From Cochliopodium minus (taxonomy: Eukaryota > Discosea > Himatismenida > Cochliopodiidae), in NCBI GenBank assembly GCA_024220525.1, contig JAMYWO010000254.1:1-57928 (forward strand): DNA of 57,928 nt. Direction: 5' to 3'. The notes beneath the pieces are model-generated. The model ran no database searches. It was not told the origin of the DNA and was given only the letters and a program-made list of their open reading frames with translations. A program made the position numbers and the translations under genes. Shown here piece by piece: positions 3,433 through 43,906 of this stretch (its first letter is position 1; each line of letters begins with the position of its first letter).

Positions 3433-3635
3433 AAATCACTATTACCCTCCGCACCATTAATACCATCCTCCGCACCATTATTACCATCCTCCACAACCCT
3501 ATTATCCTCCTCCGATCCAAAATCCTCAATATCTACACGATTACTCTCAACATCCCTATTATCCTCCTCCACAACCCTATTATCCTCCTCCGATCCAAAA
3601 TCCCATTATCCGCACCATTATTACCATCCTCCTAA
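3433..3635 (+). repeat. Tandem Pro/Tyr/His-coding repeats
   Basis: Units built on TATTATCCTCCTCC, CCGCACCATTATTACCATCC and CACAACCCTATTATCC recur about ten times. A 36-40 bp compound unit that includes CTCCTCCGATCCAAAATCC occurs twice. Read on the plus strand they give YYPPPQ / YHPPHH-type repeats, like the low-complexity tails of annexins and other membrane- or coat-associated proteins. They sit at the 3' end of the broken recombinase region, within the inverted-repeat arms. Confidence 0.75.
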
Positions 3636-34100: not shown

Positions 34101-34474
34101 ACTTTTTATTTTATTGAATCATTTTAGAATATTTTACCATCATTTTTTTCATAATTATTTTTTAAATTTTTTTAATTTCCATTTAAAAATTTTTTTTAGT
34201 GTTTTCTGAAATTGAGAACGTGATCCATTTAGAAACACCAGAAAATTACGACATCAGAAAAATTTCGGAATATCTCAGCGAATATGGCCACGTGACCGTC
34301 AAAAAAGAGAAGAACGAGGTGTTGTTTTGTATGGGCAACATGGACAAAAACGAAAAGTTAGACAAAATCTTCTTTGATCTCAAAAACAAGTTTTCTTCGA
34401 ATAATCTCAAGTTTAACAAGTGGGACGAAATTTTGATTAAAATTCATGGTTATAAGAAGAAACTTCAAAATTAA
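31137..34474 (+). CDS. PARN: Poly(A)-specific ribonuclease (PARN/CAF1 family)
   Basis: DEDDh 3' exonuclease that removes poly(A) and trims telomerase and H/ACA RNAs. Exons 31137-31233, 31461-31736, 32033-32407, 32592-32791, 33230-33382, 33597-33788 and 34200-34474. All four metal ligands are visible: Asp and Glu in FIAIDTEFTG, Asp in VVGHNMFTDLVL, and Asp in EHEAGYDAFISGYSF; the DEDDh His is in the same FEHEAGYDAF segment. GLHSENEKDNLFDTVQERYD and LIIQYGLCIFEWDKEEKKY fit the PARN N-terminal nuclease fold, and the exon-3 region matches the R3H insertion. Exon 4 to exon 5 does not keep frame with canonical GT..AG (the protein wants R-V-L-S-D-I-F-E), so a one-base assembly error or odd splice is likely. 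The C-terminus is shorter than in human PARN. Confidence 0.92.
33838..34036. repeat. TTTTTA/ATTTTT hexamer microsatellite
   Basis: Some 25-30 near-perfect copies of TATTTT form the core of the last PARN intron. The strand is pure pyrimidine apart from single A residues. In one frame it reads as an IFIFIF string, which is an artefact. Confidence 0.9.
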
Positions 34475-34693
34475 AAATTTATTTCATTTATTGTATTATT
34501 TTTTCTTTTTTAATTAATTTTGTTAAAATTTTTTCATTTTAAATTAATAATGGAAAAACTAGAATTAAAACTTTTTTGACTGAAACCTGTTGTCCTTATT
34601 TAAACCCAATTTAATAAAATTAATTAAACAAAATTAAAAAAGATTTTAAAATAATATAAAAATAAAAAATAAAAAATAAAAAATAAAATAAAA

Positions 34694-36069
34694 ATGAAGA
34701 TAAACCAAAGAAAAATATTCAAAAAAATTTTTAAAGGACAATCCAAATTATATTCAACAAATATTAATGTAGATTTCAGCAATAGTGAAGAATATAAAGG
34801 AAAACATGGACCAAAATATCTCAATCATACCCCCACAACGAATCTTCAAAAGTAAAAAAAAATAAAGAACAAATGGGTTCATAAAATAGAATGAATGGAA
34901 TTTACAGAAAAATTTAAAAATAACACAACCAGATTATATCATTTTCAAAAAAAATTTATATTTATAATTTTATATTATTAATAATATTTCTCTGAAATTG
35001 AAATTTAAACCAATAAAAGTTTTAATTTTAAATTAATTGATTAAAAATTCTAGATTGGGCCTTGCTGTTTCTTCCGCAATAGGAGGATTCATAGATCCAA
35101 ACAGAACAGACTACATAGCAGTGTTAGGAGAAACGACTGGTGCTTTTCCACTCTCTCAAATAAGGATCAAAATGCTAAAAGACGAAACTGGTATAAAAAA
35201 GTTATATTCAAAAAAAATATTTTATTAATTAAAATTAAATTATTTGTTCAAAAAAAATTTTTTAAAAAAATTATTTAAAAAATGATTAATAAATTTTTAA
35301 AAAGGAAAAAAAATTTTGGAGGAAAAGCCACTTGTTAGAAACATTGATGTCCAAAGATTCTCAGAGTTGAAAGAAGGCACTTTTGGGAGAGCTTACTATG
35401 ACTTCATGAGAATCAGAGGCTTCAAGGCTGAAGAAAGAACTAAGGTGAGGTAAAAAATTAAATTTAAATTTAATAAAAAAAATAATAAAAAAATTGAAAT
35501 TAAAAATTTTAAATTAAATTAGAATAAAATTGAAATTAAATTAATTAAATAAATTAAAAATGAAATTTATTATTTAGATTTGTTGATGACCCAGAATTAG
35601 CTTATATCATTAATAGATACAGAGAAGTACATGACTTTTGGCACTTGTTATTCGGAATGGAGACGACTGTAGTTGGGGAGATCGGACTAAAGTGGATAGA
35701 TTTGTTGCAAACTGGACTTCCAATGACGTAATAATAAATTATTAAAAAAAAAAAAAATATAAAAAATTAAAAAATTAAAAAAAATTAAATTAAAAAATTA
35801 AAAGTTAAAAAAATTAAATTAAAAATTAAAAAAATTAAAAAAAAAAAATTTTTAAAAAAAAAAGATTTTTGGCTTCTTTTGTTGGACCTTTGCGCTTGCC
35901 TTTTAGTGAAAAGAAATTATTAGTTACCAAGATGATTCCTTGGGCAATTGACAATTCTTTGAGGGTCCCTTTCTTACTCAACATCTATTATGAAAAACAC
36001 TTTGAGGAGGACTTGAGTGATCTCAGAAACAAACTGAAAATAAAACCTTATGATCCTCATTTCAAATAA
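34694..36069 (+). CDS. COQ4: Ubiquinone biosynthesis protein COQ4
   Basis: Mitochondrial matrix scaffold and C1-decarboxylase of coenzyme Q synthesis. Exons 34694-34851, 35054-35190, 35305-35449, 35578-35727 and 35865-36069 give 264 residues. The N-terminus ([20 protein letters not shown]) is basic and acid-free, as expected of a mitochondrial presequence. Family hallmarks: [47 protein letters not shown] with the zinc motif H-D-x-x-H..E ([17 protein letters not shown]), and [20 protein letters not shown]. Length agrees with other COQ4 proteins. All introns are A-rich in the sense strand. Presence of COQ4 implies an aerobic, ubiquinone-using organism. Confidence 0.95.
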
Positions 36070-36115: not shown

Positions 36116-38818
36116 TTAATTCCCTTCTTTATTAATTCCTTCATTAATTTCTTGCAGTATTTCTTTCTTTTCAGTTTGATTTGGCATTTCTTCATTTACT
36201 TTCTCAACATTAGATTGTTGTGAAAGAGAATTAAGTTTGGATTGCAAAAGATTCAAAAGATCATTGTCATTCTTAAGGACANNNNNNNNNNNNNNNNNNN
36301 NNNNNNNNNNNNNNNNNNNNNNNNNNNNNNNNNNNNNNNNNNNNNNNNNNNNNNNNNNNNNNNNNNNNNNNNNNNNNNNNNAAGCAAATCCACTGGTGAG
36401 GAACCAACCAAACTTTCAAAGAATCTTCAAATTCCTGATCCTTTACATCAGAGACATCACTTTTTTCATCTCCAACTTTTACACTTTCGATATTACTATT
36501 GTTGTTAATTTCAATATTAAAATCTTGATTATCATCAATTTTTTCATTATTTTCTTCAACTTTAAAACTATCAGTGTTTGTTATTTCATTATTTACAAAA
36601 TTATTACTATTTTCGATAATTTTTTCATTGTCATTACTCATTTCACTTTCGTCTTCGCTTTCACTCTCACTTTGGTTTTTGAAGAGGGAAACGGAGGGAA
36701 AATATTTCCTCTGTCCAGAACAAGACAGGAGATAGGGCAAAGAAGGGTGGTACTCAACAGAATTCAAGCAGTCCTCATGCAGTTTTTTTTTCTCCACCAA
36801 TTTCCCCTCCTCTCCGTTTAAATCGAAAACAAATAAGTTTCCGTCACTTGATCCACTAACCAAGTAATTGTTGCCTTTTTAATTAAAAAAAAATTGAAAT
36901 TTTAATTTAAGAAAATAAAAAATTTGAATTAAAAAATGTAAATAAATAAATTTAAATAAATATTCAATGAAAATAAAAATTTTTTAAAAATAATGAAAAA
37001 TAAAAAATAAAATATTTATTAAAGCAAATTATCTGAAAAAAAATGAAATAAATAAAAAAATTAAAAAATGAAAAAATTTAAAAAATGGTTTACTTTTGTC
37101 CAAATCGAAAGTAATGCGTTGATTTGTTTGAGAAACCCTTTGTAACTTGAAAAGAGGCTTCTTAAGCTTTCTTAAATCCCAACAAAAGATGAAATTGTCT
37201 TTACGAGCACCAGAGTAAAGTTGGTTGCCACACGCGCTGAATTTCAAATGAGTAACCCCTCCTGTGTGTCCCTTCATTGATTTTATCATTTTTCCATTGT
37301 TTGGGTCCCATAACCCCAATTTTTTCGAGTAACTTCCACAAGCTAACATCTTTTTTTTTAAAAAAATTAAAATAATATATTTGAAAATTTAAATTTGAAA
37401 TACATCAAAAAATAAGTTTTTAAAAAATAAAAATAAGTTCAAAAAAAAAATTATTTAGTTTATAAAATGAAAAATAAATAAAAAATAATTTTATACCAAT
37501 AAATTATTATTAAATAAAAATTTTATTAAAAATTTATATTATAACAAAAATTTATAAAGTTTAAAAAAAAAATAATTGTGAAATAAAATTAAAAAAAAAA
37601 ATTTATTCAAGTTAAAATAAAATGAAAAATAAAAAATTAAAAAATAAAATTAAGTTGAAAAAATAAAAATTTATGACTTTTGAATCCATTTCTTTATTTT
37701 TTTAAAACGAAAAAAATTTTTTTTACCTTATTATCATTTTTCATATCTATAGCACCAATGATTCCTTCATAACCATTAGTATGTTTGTTTCTCCTTTCGA
37801 AAGTTTTTATGGTGTCGATTTCTCTGCCAGGAATGGACACATCAAACACCTTCACGTTGTTCATATATCCTCCATAAAGTTTTTCTCCTGTTTTATCAAA
37901 TGAGAGAGAAATAGCATAATCCAATTCGTCAAGGTGACTGTATCCTGATGAAAAATCGAAATTCAATTTTTCATCATTTTTATTTTCATTTTATATTTTT
38001 TCTTTTTTTATTTTATTTTTTTGATTTTTTTTTTTAATTAATTTTTATTTTTATTTCTTATTTTTTGATTTTAGATTTTTATTTTATTCATTTTTCATCA
38101 TTATTTATAATTTATTTCAAATTTTTTTATTTTTTATTTTTATTTTTATTTTTTATTTTTTATTTTATTTTTTTCTTTTTTATTTTACTTACCATTGAAA
38201 CTTCCTCTTGTCTTTCCTGTGTACGCATCCCATAACCTAATTGGCTGATCTTTAGCAGTGGAAACAAAAAAGCAAGTAGTAGGATCCAAAGAGTGCATCT
38301 TGGGAAACCAAGCGAAATCATAAACAGTTTCTGCTTGTTTTATTTTCAAGATTGGTTTAGTTTCTTCAATAACATCATATTGTTGTGAACTAAAAAAAAA
38401 AATTTAAAAAAATTTAAAATTTAAATTGTGGCGCCAAGATTTTCTTTTACTTCGCTGAAAAATTGAATAATCTTAGGTATTTATCTTCGCTGTTCGATAG
38501 ATAGCATGTACCATCTGGAGCCCATTTGCATCCTTTCAGATAATTGTTGTATTTCTTCTCTTCCTGCTTGAATTCTTGCTCTGCCTTTGTTAAGAGGGTA
38601 TATCCACCTTCCTTGAAGTCAGATCCATGCAGCAATGATAAATGATAGCTAACAGAGTAATTATTGTAGTTATAATCTGTTGTATAGGTGTTATTGTGTT
38701 GATAATCTGTTGTATTATTATTATTGTTTTCAATTAAAAGATTATTATCTTCATTGATTGATTCATCTATTAATTTGGGTTTCTTTGATGGATTGGGTAA
38801 TATTTCTTCATCGTTCAT
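36116..38818 (-). CDS. WRAP53: WD40 protein WRAP53/TCAB1 (telomerase Cajal body protein), interrupted by N gap
   Basis: Binds the CAB box of H/ACA scaRNAs and telomerase RNA. Minus-strand exons from ATG 38818: an Asn/Thr-rich N-tail then [52 protein letters not shown] (38390-38195); [20 protein letters not shown] (37960-37730); [40 protein letters not shown] and [14 protein letters not shown] (37349-37095); and [40 protein letters not shown] (36880-36640). The WxPDGxC, GARKD and TNQRI..FDLD words are specific to this family. The 100-N gap lies inside the acidic C-terminal part; the gap size may be nominal, so the frame across it is not proven. The tail after the gap ([20 protein letters not shown]) ends at stop 36116. 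Confidence 0.9.
36282..36381. other. Assembly gap (100 N)
   Basis: Exactly 100 N, the conventional scaffold-gap length, within the 3' part of the WRAP53 gene. Confidence 0.99.
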
Positions 38819-38975: not shown

Positions 38976-39612
38976 TTAATTATTTTTTAGATCGTAATTC
39001 AAAGTCTTGACAGGCAATCCTTCGGTGAAAGCATAGCCAGTGTAGCCCTTCTCCAATTTAGGAACACGTTCACCTTTGATTGTCAAGTGTCTTCTATTGA
39101 CAGGTTTTTTAGTACGATGCAACTTGGAAAGTTTACCTTTAAAAAATGAATAAAAAAAAAAAGATAAATAAAATAAATTTTTTATTAAAAATAAAAAAAA
39201 TAAATTCAAATAATTTCTTTTTCTTTACCCAATTTTTCTCTTTCTGCGACGATGTGATAGTTTTTAGGGAAAAAAGTTCTATGTATGTACAACCAAGTGA
39301 ATGGGAGAAGATTGGCAGCAATAGGAACCTTTATTAAAGATAAATTAAAAATAAAAAAGTTACAATATTAAAGAAATAAAAATTAAAAAAATATTAAAAT
39401 TAAAATTAAAAAATTAAAAATTAAAAAATTAAAAAATTAATTTTATTTTTTTACCATTAAGACAAGAAACCAATGTTGAGGATTTGCGAGCAAACGGTAG
39501 TAAGTGAAGTAGATGTTGTAACCAAGAGAAGTGCTTGGGAACAATGCACAATAAATTATACACCATATAAAGATCAAGAAAAGTGACAACCAAACAACGA
39601 GATGGTGAAACC
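38976..39612 (-). CDS. C-terminal fragment of a P4-ATPase (phospholipid flippase)
   Basis: Three minus-strand exons (39612-39458, about 39326-39233, about 39136-38976) form an uninterrupted tail of about 135 residues: HHLVVWLSLFLIFIWCIIYC, YNIYFTYYRLLANPQHWFLV, the family end-motif region AANLLPFTWLYIHRTFFPKN with YHIV, and a basic tail finishing GYTGYAFTEGLPVKTL. This is the last two or three transmembrane helices plus the cytosolic tail of type IV P-type ATPases (the G-F/Y-A-F-S/T near the end is typical). The first exon has a good acceptor (AAAATAG|GTTTC) but nothing coding lies upstream: within 280 bases an opposed gene begins. The remaining roughly 1,000 residues are absent, so the gene is truncated by rearrangement or mis-assembly. 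Confidence 0.75.
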
Positions 39613-39889
39613 TATTTTAAAAAATAATGTAATGAAAAATAAAAAGAAATTTAACAAAAAAATAAAATTTAACAAATAAAAAATAAATTAAATGAAATTA
39701 AAAAATTAATGAAAAAAAAAATAAAAAATAAAAAATAATAAAAATAATAAAAATAATAAAAATAATAAAAAATAATAATATAATAAAATAATAAAAAATA
39801 ATAATATAATAAAATAAAAATAATATAAAATAAAAAAATGTAAAAATAAAAAATGAAAAAATGTAAAAATTCCTTTATATTTTTAAAAG
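39613..39889. other. Low-complexity seam between two 5'-truncated opposed genes
   Basis: On the left, a minus-strand acceptor leads into the P4-ATPase tail. On the right, a plus-strand acceptor (TTTTAAAAG|GAAAATTC) leads into an exonuclease-family C-terminus. Both expect upstream exons that are not here. The space between is AATAATAA/AAAATAATATAAT filler, so two introns appear to have been fused head to head within simple sequence. Confidence 0.65.
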
Positions 39890-41463
39890 GAAAATTCAAT
39901 GAATATACTTATATGTTGATGCCATGTTTGGAAACAGCAAAAATATTCTTCAAAGAAATCGTAAAAGAAAAACTTCCTCCCCTGATGAAATTTGAAAGTG
40001 TGTACAACGGAAAAAGAAAAGTGTTCGACCCAAACATCAACAAAAAAGTAGTGTGTTTCTCAGGCGAAAATCTTAAATTTTCAAACTTTATAAATTATTC
40101 TAATTGTACTAATTTCACCAAAGATTTTTGTGGGATGATCGATTATATTTTTGTTAACGAAAAAATTAATGTGGTGGAAAAATTCCGCTTTTTTGACGAA
40201 AAAATGAAAAAAAAAATTTCATCTTTTGATGAAAAAGATTTCGGGGAGGAGGGTTTGGAGGAAGTGGATTTTGTTAATTTTATTTTTGATTTTTTCACTT
40301 TTAATCAGAAACATACCTCATTCCCTTTTTGTTTGCCCAATGAGGATTGGCCTTCTGACCATTTTGCTCTTTCCGCCATTCTACAACTTTCTTTTGTTGA
40401 CAAAGTTGAAGAAATTGGTCCTCTTAATGACAATTTGAATTGTGATTTAAAGAAGGAAGTAACTAATTTTGATAATAACATTGTTGATAATGTTAAAAAT
40501 GAGGCTGTTAATTCAAATTTTATCCCTGTTATTCAAGATCTTCCCAACGAAAGTGATAAATCAGTTAATGTAAACAAAATCATTGAATCAAGTAACAATG
40601 AAAAAATTGATAACAAAGACAAGAACAATAACAATATTAATGAAAATAACTCTTCCACAAGTTCACAAACAAACATTACAAGTGAAAAGCCAGTTTGGAA
40701 GCCAAAGAAAGTGTCGAAGAAAATAGGAAACCTCACAATAACTCTTACTTCTCCATCTCCGAGACACAATGTCAAATGGTTTTACTCGAAATGCCTGTCC
40801 AAAAAAAGCGAAATGAACATCACCGAAACATGTTCCCTTTGTAAGAAAGAATCTCCTTTCATCGCCTGGCATTTGATTACAGAATGCGAAGTAATAAAAG
40901 AAATAGAGTTTCACATCCCCAAACTCTCCAATTATGAAATTCCCCTCGATGTAAAATCATTTTTCAGAGAAGACCGCATTTATTATTCTATTCATGGTGG
41001 AAAGAACATGATTGTTTCTTATTATTGGACTATAAACTATGCCATTTGGAGATTTTACCGCTTTTTTTCGGATCATTTCAAAAACAAACCCTCTTTTCTT
41101 CCTTTGTACTCTTATTTCTTTTATTTTGTTTCTGTTGAAGAATATATGCTCCTCAAGTATGCTTCCTACTATGACCATAAGAAATATACAAAGCCCGACA
41201 GTAGATGGAACAGTCTGAGTCTTTTTTATGAGTTTAAGTTTCCCTTCATTCCAAAAAAGAAGAAGAAGAAACTCCGCAAACCTGTCTCTTTTAATTACAA
41301 ACTCAACAATAGTGGAAAAGACTTGGAGATTGACTTTTTCGAGCCTCAATTAGTTGTCAACTCTTTCGTCAACATGAAAAATTTGTTGAGAAGCTTCAAA
41401 CAAAAGATGTTTCTTTCTTCAAAAAAAATCAATCATTCAATTGATCAATCAAATGTTTATTAA
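39890..41463 (+). CDS. CCR4/PDE12-like exonuclease C-terminus with reverse-transcriptase-type zinc knuckle
   Basis: One open frame of about 524 residues; ATG 39853 lies 37 bases upstream of an AAAAG acceptor, so the true 5' end is probably lost. The N-terminal part matches the second half of the endonuclease/exonuclease/phosphatase fold of the Nocturnin, ANGEL and PDE12 group: FTKDFCGMIDYIFV, then LPNEDWPSDHFALSAILQL with the catalytic Asp-His pair. A long Asn/Lys/Glu-rich linker follows. Next come ETCSLCKKESPFIAWHLITE plus C (C-x2-C-x9-H-x4-C, about 40830-40893), the layout of the zf-RVT knuckle at the end of non-LTR reverse transcriptases, and a Trp/Tyr-rich region (YYWTINYAIWRFYRFFSDHF) like that following the knuckle in LINEs. 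No reverse-transcriptase palm domain lies between. It could be a host fusion, a captured element tail, or part of the neighbouring rearrangement. Confidence 0.6.
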
Positions 41464-41505: not shown

Positions 41506-43906
41506 ATGAATTTAAGTTCAAATTGCTTCTCTAATCAAACTATGTTTTTGAATGGTAAAAAATTTAAAAAGAGATTCCCTAAATTCTTATCTTTTGACAT
41601 TTTATTTCCACATAATTTGATTTATAAAAATGAGTTTGAATATCCAGACACATATTTTTAACACTATAATAAATCAAACGTAGATATATTGGATATAACC
41701 TCAAATAAGAATTGTTATTTTCATTTGGTGTTTTGTAATCGCATTTAAATGCAAATAATTTCTCGTCATGCATATCTTTGATATTTCCTTGTTGATAATT
41801 TAATTGACCCATTTATTTTATAGAGGATGGTGATTTATATGGATTTGGTTCTAATAATTATGGTCAATTGGGATTGGGAGATATTCAAAATAATATGCAA
41901 AGTTATGAGAATCCTACCTTTATCATGAACAACAAAAACATAAAAGAGATCATTCTAGGTGTAAATCATAGTTTCTATTTGGAGAGTAAAAAAAAAAAAA
42001 AATAAAAATAAAAAATTTTGTTTTCAAATTGATCGATCATAAAAATTTTAGAAAATGGAGATTTATATGGGTGTGGTAAATTATTCAATTAAAAAATTTT
42101 TTTTTAAGTTTCAATTTCATTCATGAATTTAAATTTAAAAAAAAAAATTTAAATTATTTTGTTCCAAATTATTTGTTAAAAAAAAAATTTTAAACAATTA
42201 AATTTAATTTTATTTTAAACAATTAAATTTAATTTTATTTTTTTTCATTTTTATAAACTTATTAGGATGGAACGATCAGTGTCAATTGGGAATATCAACA
42301 GGATCTTCAAACCCGAAAACATTCATCAAATCTTGTTCTGAAGTGAAAAGGATATGGACTTCATACCGTTCCACCATTATAGAAAAGTGTAAAAAATATT
42401 TAAAAAATAAAATATGAAAAAAAAAAAAAAACATAAATATTTTATTTTAAAAAAATTTTAAAATTAAAAATATTTGGAAATTTAACTTGTAGAAAAGTGT
42501 CAAAATAAAATAAAATAAAAAATAAAAAATAATAATATTTTAAAAAAAAACAAATAAACTTTTAATAACAGTTGACAAGAAAATATATTTTGTTGGGAAT
42601 ATGGGGGCTTTCACTTCCCAGACTCTTAAAAAAATAAAAATAGGGGAATGCTCCTCTATTTCACTTGGTTGTTCTCATGCAATATTCTTGACAAGTAAAA
42701 ACAAAAAATAAAAAACAAAAAACAAAAAATAAAATAAAAAATAAAAAATAAAAAATAAAAAATAAAAAATAAAAAATAAAAAATAAAAAAAATGATTTGA
42801 AGAATTAAAAAATTTTAAAAGAAAAAGGAGAAATTTTCGGGTTGGGATCATTTTATGGAGAGTCTTCGGAAACGACCAAGAACCTTGTTCTTTTGTTTAC
42901 TAACAAAGATGCTTATTCTGTTAGTTGTGGGTACAGAAACTCTTTTGTATTATCTGGTAATTAAAAATAAAAATAAATAAAAATATAAAAAATAAAAATA
43001 AAAATAAACAAAAACAAAAAATAAAAAATAAAAAATAAAAAATAAAAAAATTACTGATTAATGTGAAGAAAATTAACTACATTTTCCAAAGAAAGAAAAA
43101 GAGGCTCTCTTTTGCATTGTTTTGGAATAGATATTTCTGTGAAATCAACCGAAGCAAACGAAAAAATTTCAAAAATTAAATTTCCCAAAAAAATTAAAAG
43201 TTTGCACTGTGGAGGAACTCACATTTTAATGTTGACATGTTCATTACTTTTTTTTTCAATGTTTTTTAAACTATTTTCATAATGGGAATACTTTAATCTT
43301 TTTTTTTTAAATTAGATGATGGAGAAGTTTATGGGAAAGGAGAGAATGAACACAATCAACTTGCATTGGATCCTTTTGTTAAAAAATACCAAGATTTTAC
43401 CAAAACACAAATAATAAATGTTGATAAAATTACTTGTGGATGGAATCATTCAATTTTTGTTTTGAGTAAAAAAAAAAACAATTTCTTTTTATTTTATTTT
43501 TTGTAAAAAAAAAAAATGTCAAAAACTTTCTAGAAAATAAAGAAATTTATGTTATTGGTGGGAATTTTAGAGGCAGATTAGGTGTTGGTGATTCTCTCAA
43601 TAGAACTACTTTGACCAAAATATCTTTTGAGAAATTAAAGTACATCCATAACCACCATTCATGTTGCGTAACAACTAACAAAAATTATTAAAAGTTAAAT
43701 TCTTTAATTTTCATTTTAAAAAAAAGGATTGGAGTCCTCAAGAACATTACTTTTTTGGAAAAGAATTTAATTTTAAAATCATTTCTTTGATTACTTGTTT
43801 CAAACTTTTCACAAAAAAAATAAAGGAAGAGAAAAATTTGGTGATAAAATTACCAAGGCCCATTCTCTACCTAATAATAAAGACAATTGCTGATTTTGAA
43901 AATTAA
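41506..43906 (+). CDS. RCC1-repeat protein with C-terminal W-S-P-x2-H module
   Basis: Nine or ten exons from ATG 41506 (exon 1 41506-41554, next 41824). The repeats read FLNEDGDLYGFGSNNYGQLG, NGDLYGCGWNDQCQLGIS, KKIYFVGNMGAF, GEIFGLGSFYGESSETTK, DDGEVYGKGENEHNQLALD and NKEIYVIGGNFRGRLGVGD, with linking C-G-W/Y-x-x-S/H-x-x-F-x-L strands, i.e. one seven-bladed propeller. The last exon (43729-43906) encodes DWSPQEHYFFGKEFNFKIIS and an Ile/Leu/Lys-rich helix ending IADFEN. It follows donor TGC|GTAACA. The RCC1-type arginine finger or beta-wedge for Ran is not evident, so Ran exchange activity is unlikely to be inferable. The gene is convergent with its right neighbour, 46 bases apart. Confidence 0.85.
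42718..42792. repeat. AAAAAT hexamer microsatellite
   Basis: About ten copies of AAAAAT/AAAAAC within an intron of the RCC1 gene, the sense-strand counterpart of the T-rich array in the PARN intron. A shorter array recurs in the next intron (43010-43050). Confidence 0.85.

Follow-up and report, generated by a model that had tools for sequence, protein, structure and literature searches.

In a contig from Cochliopodium minus, two opposed genes, a minus-strand P4-ATPase (flippase) and a plus-strand nuclease of the CCR4/ANGEL/PDE12 type, both begin in the middle of a domain at a single low-complexity seam. Was a chromosome broken at this point, or was the contig put together from parts that do not belong to each other? 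The window that we analyzed is the entire contig C254 (57,928 bases), and the assembly that we searched comprises 598 contigs with 44.65 Mb. The original prediction, based on the window alone, had left a misjoin and a real inversion as alternatives, and had pointed to the rest of the assembly as the place to look for missing 5′ exons that end in similar filler. We found both sets of exons there, at the ends of contigs (C240:137–1468 and C117:79–1126) that break off within an intron. These partner exons, together with fitting codon phase and profile register, support the misjoin; we found no support for the inversion. As far as sequence comparison can tell, the contig is very probably chimeric, as a result of an assembly misjoin via A/T-rich introns rather than of a broken chromosome.

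First, we confirmed that both genes indeed start within a domain behind a splice acceptor. Three P4-ATPase exons could be spliced on the minus strand of the window (39455–39611, 39229–39328, and 38976–39136). The resulting 138 residues cover only positions 179–251 of the PF16212 profile (PhoLip_ATPase_C, 38.1 bits). The last exon, identified by splicing and translation, contains the C-terminus with the stop codon, and its tail could be aligned with yeast Drs2 as far as GYAFTE/GFAFSQ; the middle exon was assigned by splicing and by PF16212. The first exon, placed by splicing and by the profile, begins at position 179 of PF16212 and is preceded by the acceptor ...aaatag. Farther upstream, the same frame runs into a stop codon with no ATG in between.

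A genome search with PF16212 returned its top match on C240 (1230–1466, minus strand) and a further match on the same contig (C240:67–330). Three minus-strand exons of C240 (1468–1281, 880–727, and 323–137) cover positions 4–178 of the profile with 242.3 bits. Joined to the window exons, they afford one uninterrupted match from position 4 to 251 with 291.2 bits. The final C240 exon stops at C240:137 (...ALESRRWV, TG|gtaaaa), after which the contig ends within the intron. Together with the acceptor side in the window (ag|G TTT CAC), the split codon reads TGG. Residues 1–300 of the joined protein could be aligned with yeast Drs2 (PDB 6roj) with an E-value of 9e-52 and without a gap at the join. 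The flippase motifs DGET, DKTGTLT (at 3481), and GDGAND (at 1857) are encoded upstream on C240, and only C240 and the window taken together provide a full PhoLip_ATPase_C domain in combination with DKTGTLT.

The nuclease gave a similar picture. Its 3′ exon in the window (39890–41463, plus strand), delimited by splicing, by the profile, and by comparison with a paralogue on C220, encodes the end of the EEP domain and a long C-terminal extension. The EEP part covers only positions 179–225 of PF03372 (Exo_endo_phos) with 12.5 bits, which is below the curated cut-off of 24.5. The exon is preceded by the acceptor ...ttttaaaag; since the frame is open upstream across this acceptor to an ATG at 39853, a gene caller could place the start of the gene there. 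A genome search with PF03372 produced 28 matches at E-values of up to 1, one of which occupies the left end of C117, on the minus strand. Two exons of C117 (1126–835 and 432–79) code for a stretch of 216 residues that opens with a start codon and closes with ...GSIIS, in good agreement with the roughly 200 residues that had been predicted to be missing. The second exon terminates at C|gtaaaa, and A/T filler extends from there to the end of the contig. These exons cover positions 3–160 of PF03372 (32.1 bits), and after joining to the window exon the match spans positions 3–225 (45.1 bits). In this case the split codon, C|gtaaaa on C117 and ag|GA AAA TTC in the window, reads CGA. The stretches NWNILA, LQEV, NCHLEWNP, and GDFN are found on C117 and SDH in the window; we take these to be the motifs of CCR4/ANGEL/PDE12-type EEP nucleases. 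Only C117 and the window together provide a complete EEP domain from its start to the terminal SDH. The proposed CCR4/PDE12-like assignment can be refined: the solved structure nearest to the missing half is that of ANGEL2, with yeast Ccr4 and PDE12 next in line.

The paralogue on C220 links the two nuclease parts more strongly than the profile scores do. Within L040 on this contig, positions 1331–2065 are matched by the C117 part (71.6 bits, 26% identity) and positions 2368–2613 by the window part (66.2 bits, 35% identity), on the same strand and in the order C117 part, then window part. We compared 26 EEP stretches, with C220 included twice and with four further stretches that overlap members of this set left aside. 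If the C117 locus is disregarded, C220 was the best match for either part. A genome search with the window nuclease protein, at E-values of up to 10, returned only this protein and C220. We also considered two other contigs as the partner. The right end of C369 contains a 5′ EEP fragment that runs into similar filler, and phase alone, as judged by eye, does not exclude it; the protein encoded by this fragment was rejected because it matches the C220 paralogue with only 18.9 bits (E 8.5). C383, with an EEP match about 3.2 kb from its end, was rejected because that end is not filler. By eye, the filler array of the EEP gene fragment on C369 (32123–34343, L021) is almost identical to that at the end of C117. 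The C-terminal extension of the window exon (40450–41463) is long and, by eye, missing from the C220 paralogue. A comparison with Pfam and with solved structures assigned it to no convincing family; its CxxC...WHLITEC pattern presumably resembles the Cys/His tail of ORF2 proteins from non-LTR retrotransposons.

After identifying both partners, we turned to the sequence that separates the two genes. The seam between the two splice acceptors, located by acceptor positions and splicing and without strand, spans 39612–39889 (278 bases), one base more than the interval of 277 bases (39613–39889) originally proposed. We read it as the product of a false join, with the remainder of the P4-ATPase intron on the left and that of the nuclease intron on the right. 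Earlier described as AATAAT filler, this sequence is indeed simple, but it is not uniform. It contains an A/T-only run of 128 bases (39712–39839, no strand), which is the longest such run in a scan of all 57,928 bases of the window; 11 runs of this kind measure at least 77 bases. The join therefore lies in repetitive sequence, and filler of this type is frequent at contig ends. The window is A/T-rich throughout, with 16–36% G+C per kb, and the genes that we read in it have many short introns. A tRNA scan of the window came back empty.

Within the A/T-only run, a word of 28 bases (39716–39743, plus strand) matches C240:85–112 exactly and in the same orientation, within the P4-ATPase intron. None of 4,538 other window segments shares a word of this length with the C240 end, the largest overlap there being 24 bases; these control segments of 278 bases overlap each other and are hence not independent. 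Joining C240 at this word would create an intron of 156 bases; the spliced flippase exons are otherwise separated by introns of 92, 126, 400, and 403 bases. With moderate confidence, we place the false step at about 39716–39743, where the true and the false path would part. The filler from this point to the nuclease acceptor would then be the nuclease's own intron.

The ends of the contigs carry a further mark. C240:1–77 is identical to C209:19516–19592 over exactly 77 bases, after which the two sequences diverge. This segment of C209 sits inside an Asn-rich reading frame (stretch L085, C209:14500–24400), and C240:1–77 is probably a false tail in common with this unrelated gene. The left end of the window also consists of A/T filler; C254:1–77 is identical to C505:7962–8038 over exactly 77 bases before the two diverge, and the C505 copy directly follows a run of N. 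We inspected 46 contig ends, 10 of which read N. For nine of the 36 readable ends, the terminal A/T-only run measures exactly 77 bases; 7 of these nine belong to an arbitrary set of 19 contigs, of which 28 ends are readable. In the latter set, 15, 13, and 8 of the 28 ends exceed the 90, 95, and 99% quantiles, respectively, of interior low complexity, as counted by hand with the 10 unreadable ends excluded. Ten of the 19 contigs (L046–L051, L053, L055, L056, and L060) have left ends that read N over all 500 bases. When a de Bruijn graph built at k = 77 is cut at a word that occurs more than once, it leaves tails of exactly 77 bases. The tails observed here suggest such a short-read graph, cut at repeats.

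Based on these observations, the misjoin probably came about as follows. The P4-ATPase would run from the left arm of the window (1 to about 39.74 kb) onto C240, and the nuclease would run from C117, in reversed orientation, into the right arm (about 39.75 to 57.9 kb). Both interrupted introns are A-rich on the plus strand of the window, with AAAAAAT- and AATAAT-like words. A short-read graph assembler probably confused the two introns and paired the wrong arms, and the other two arms were left behind as loose contig ends. The partner exons, their location at contig ends, the codon phase, the profile register, and the 77-base tails can be read directly from the assembly. From these we infer that a short-read assembler worked at k = 77, where exactly it switched, and that the error arose when repeats were resolved and not from gap filling or a chimeric read.

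Several observations weigh against this interpretation. A fitting phase at both joins has a 1-in-9 probability of arising by chance. For the nuclease, positions 161–178 of PF03372 are matched neither by the C117 part nor by the window part, and the joined score (45.1 bits) adds little to the two separate ones (32.1 and 12.5 bits). Joining the parts changes the score against ANGEL2 from 53.0 bits for the C117 part alone to 52.2 bits, and produces small gains against PDE12 (44.4 to 46.0 bits) and CNOT6L (34.3 to 35.3 bits); the CNOT6L alignment does cross the join. The overlap between the C117 end and the seam is only 25 bases (39714–39738), a length that 1.7% of other segments also reach. The longest matches of the seam to both partner ends fall within 39714–39743, which leaves the later A/T filler unaccounted for. 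Neither the terminal 77-mer of C117 nor the only seam 77-mer tested (39743–39819) has a second copy in the assembly, in which N stretches are not visible. The shared word of 28 bases is much shorter than 77, and no repeat node at k = 77 that would connect all four arms was seen.

The rival that survives best is that the sequenced strain was really rearranged, by an inversion or a translocation that broke both genes in introns and left their 5′ halves elsewhere. The exons on either side are unbroken, which would fit a recent break, and both 5′ halves do sit on other contigs. However, the reciprocal product should connect C117 and C240 by their left ends, and both of these are contig ends instead: that of C240 consists of the 77 bases from the unrelated C209 gene, and that of C117 of A/T filler. 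No junction between these two ends was seen in the assembly, although an unassembled junction could escape such a search. In addition, both breaks would need to fall in introns, and the seam happens to be the longest A/T-only run of the window, precisely the kind of sequence in which one expects short-read assembly to fail. We consider such a rearrangement very unlikely.

Even less can be said for genes that are naturally split and have their halves trans-spliced, as in the case of Giardia Hsp90. Every half does possess a donor or an acceptor of its own, in the correct phase. On the other hand, the longest complementarity between half-introns, as far as the contigs extend, is 9 nucleotides for the flippase and 8 nucleotides for the nuclease. 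The flippase half-introns overlap by 28 nucleotides in the same sense, as parts of a single intron would, and each partner half is cut short by the end of its contig. A third rival is equally hard to believe: the fragments in the window would be relics of pseudogenes, or would belong to the 3′ parts of other copies, and the genes on C240 and C117 would be unrelated paralogues. The genome does contain further P4-ATPases and EEP nucleases, but the spliced window exons contain no internal stop, and codon phase and profile register fit at both joins. Other P4-ATPase matches (C70, C192, and C101) lie in contig interiors and not at ends, no close second copy of the last flippase exon was found in the genome (next match 31% identity, E 0.25), and the C220 paralogue, which both the C117 and the window parts match, shows no meaningful similarity to the competing EEP fragment at the end of C369. 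Finally, a composite scenario, in which a real rearrangement split both genes in introns and the proteins are still made by trans-splicing from separate loci, has a very low probability.

If the contig is misjoined, the genes to the left of about 39.7 kb belong with C240 and those to the right of about 39.75 kb with C117, in line with the initial warning that annotations on the two sides may not be linked. Claims about synteny, gene neighborhood, or rearrangement across the seam should therefore be avoided, and each of the two truncated gene models should be completed with its other half, on C240 or C117. Because many contig ends finish in similar filler, comparable misjoins may exist elsewhere in this assembly. 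On the left arm, we noted by eye a COQ4-like gene (34187–36069) and a minus-strand gene of the WD40 type, perhaps related to WRAP53/TCAB1, that contains exactly 100 N (36282–36381), maybe an assembly gap. On the right arm, a gene at 41808–43691 resembles, by eye, RCC1-repeat proteins and has introns between the repeats.

How does this locus compare with known systems? Giardia Hsp90 pre-mRNAs have a complementary sequence of 26 nucleotides in common, according to PMC8494341. The Giardia genes resemble the present case in that their halves are far apart and carry fitting splice sites; here, no long complementarity between half-introns was found, and the halves end at contig ends. A second likeness is repeat misassembly in de Bruijn graphs. 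PMC9215042 attributes false edges in such graphs to repeats of at least k − 1 bases, and PMC5481147 reports that most SPAdes misassemblies with simulated bacterial data stemmed from repeat resolution. Here, contigs end with 77-base tails, and the seam is a simple repeat. As a difference, the filler consists of intronic A/T words, the word shared by the seam and C240 (28 bases) is shorter than 77, and the value of k is deduced from the tails. At the protein level, the product of C240 and window exons is similar to the yeast lipid flippase Drs2 over 300 residues, of which the window alone provides only the last part. The C117 half of the nuclease matches ANGEL2, yeast Ccr4, PDE12, CNOT6L, and nocturnin, and the window half differs from these EEP nucleases by the addition of its long C-terminal extension.
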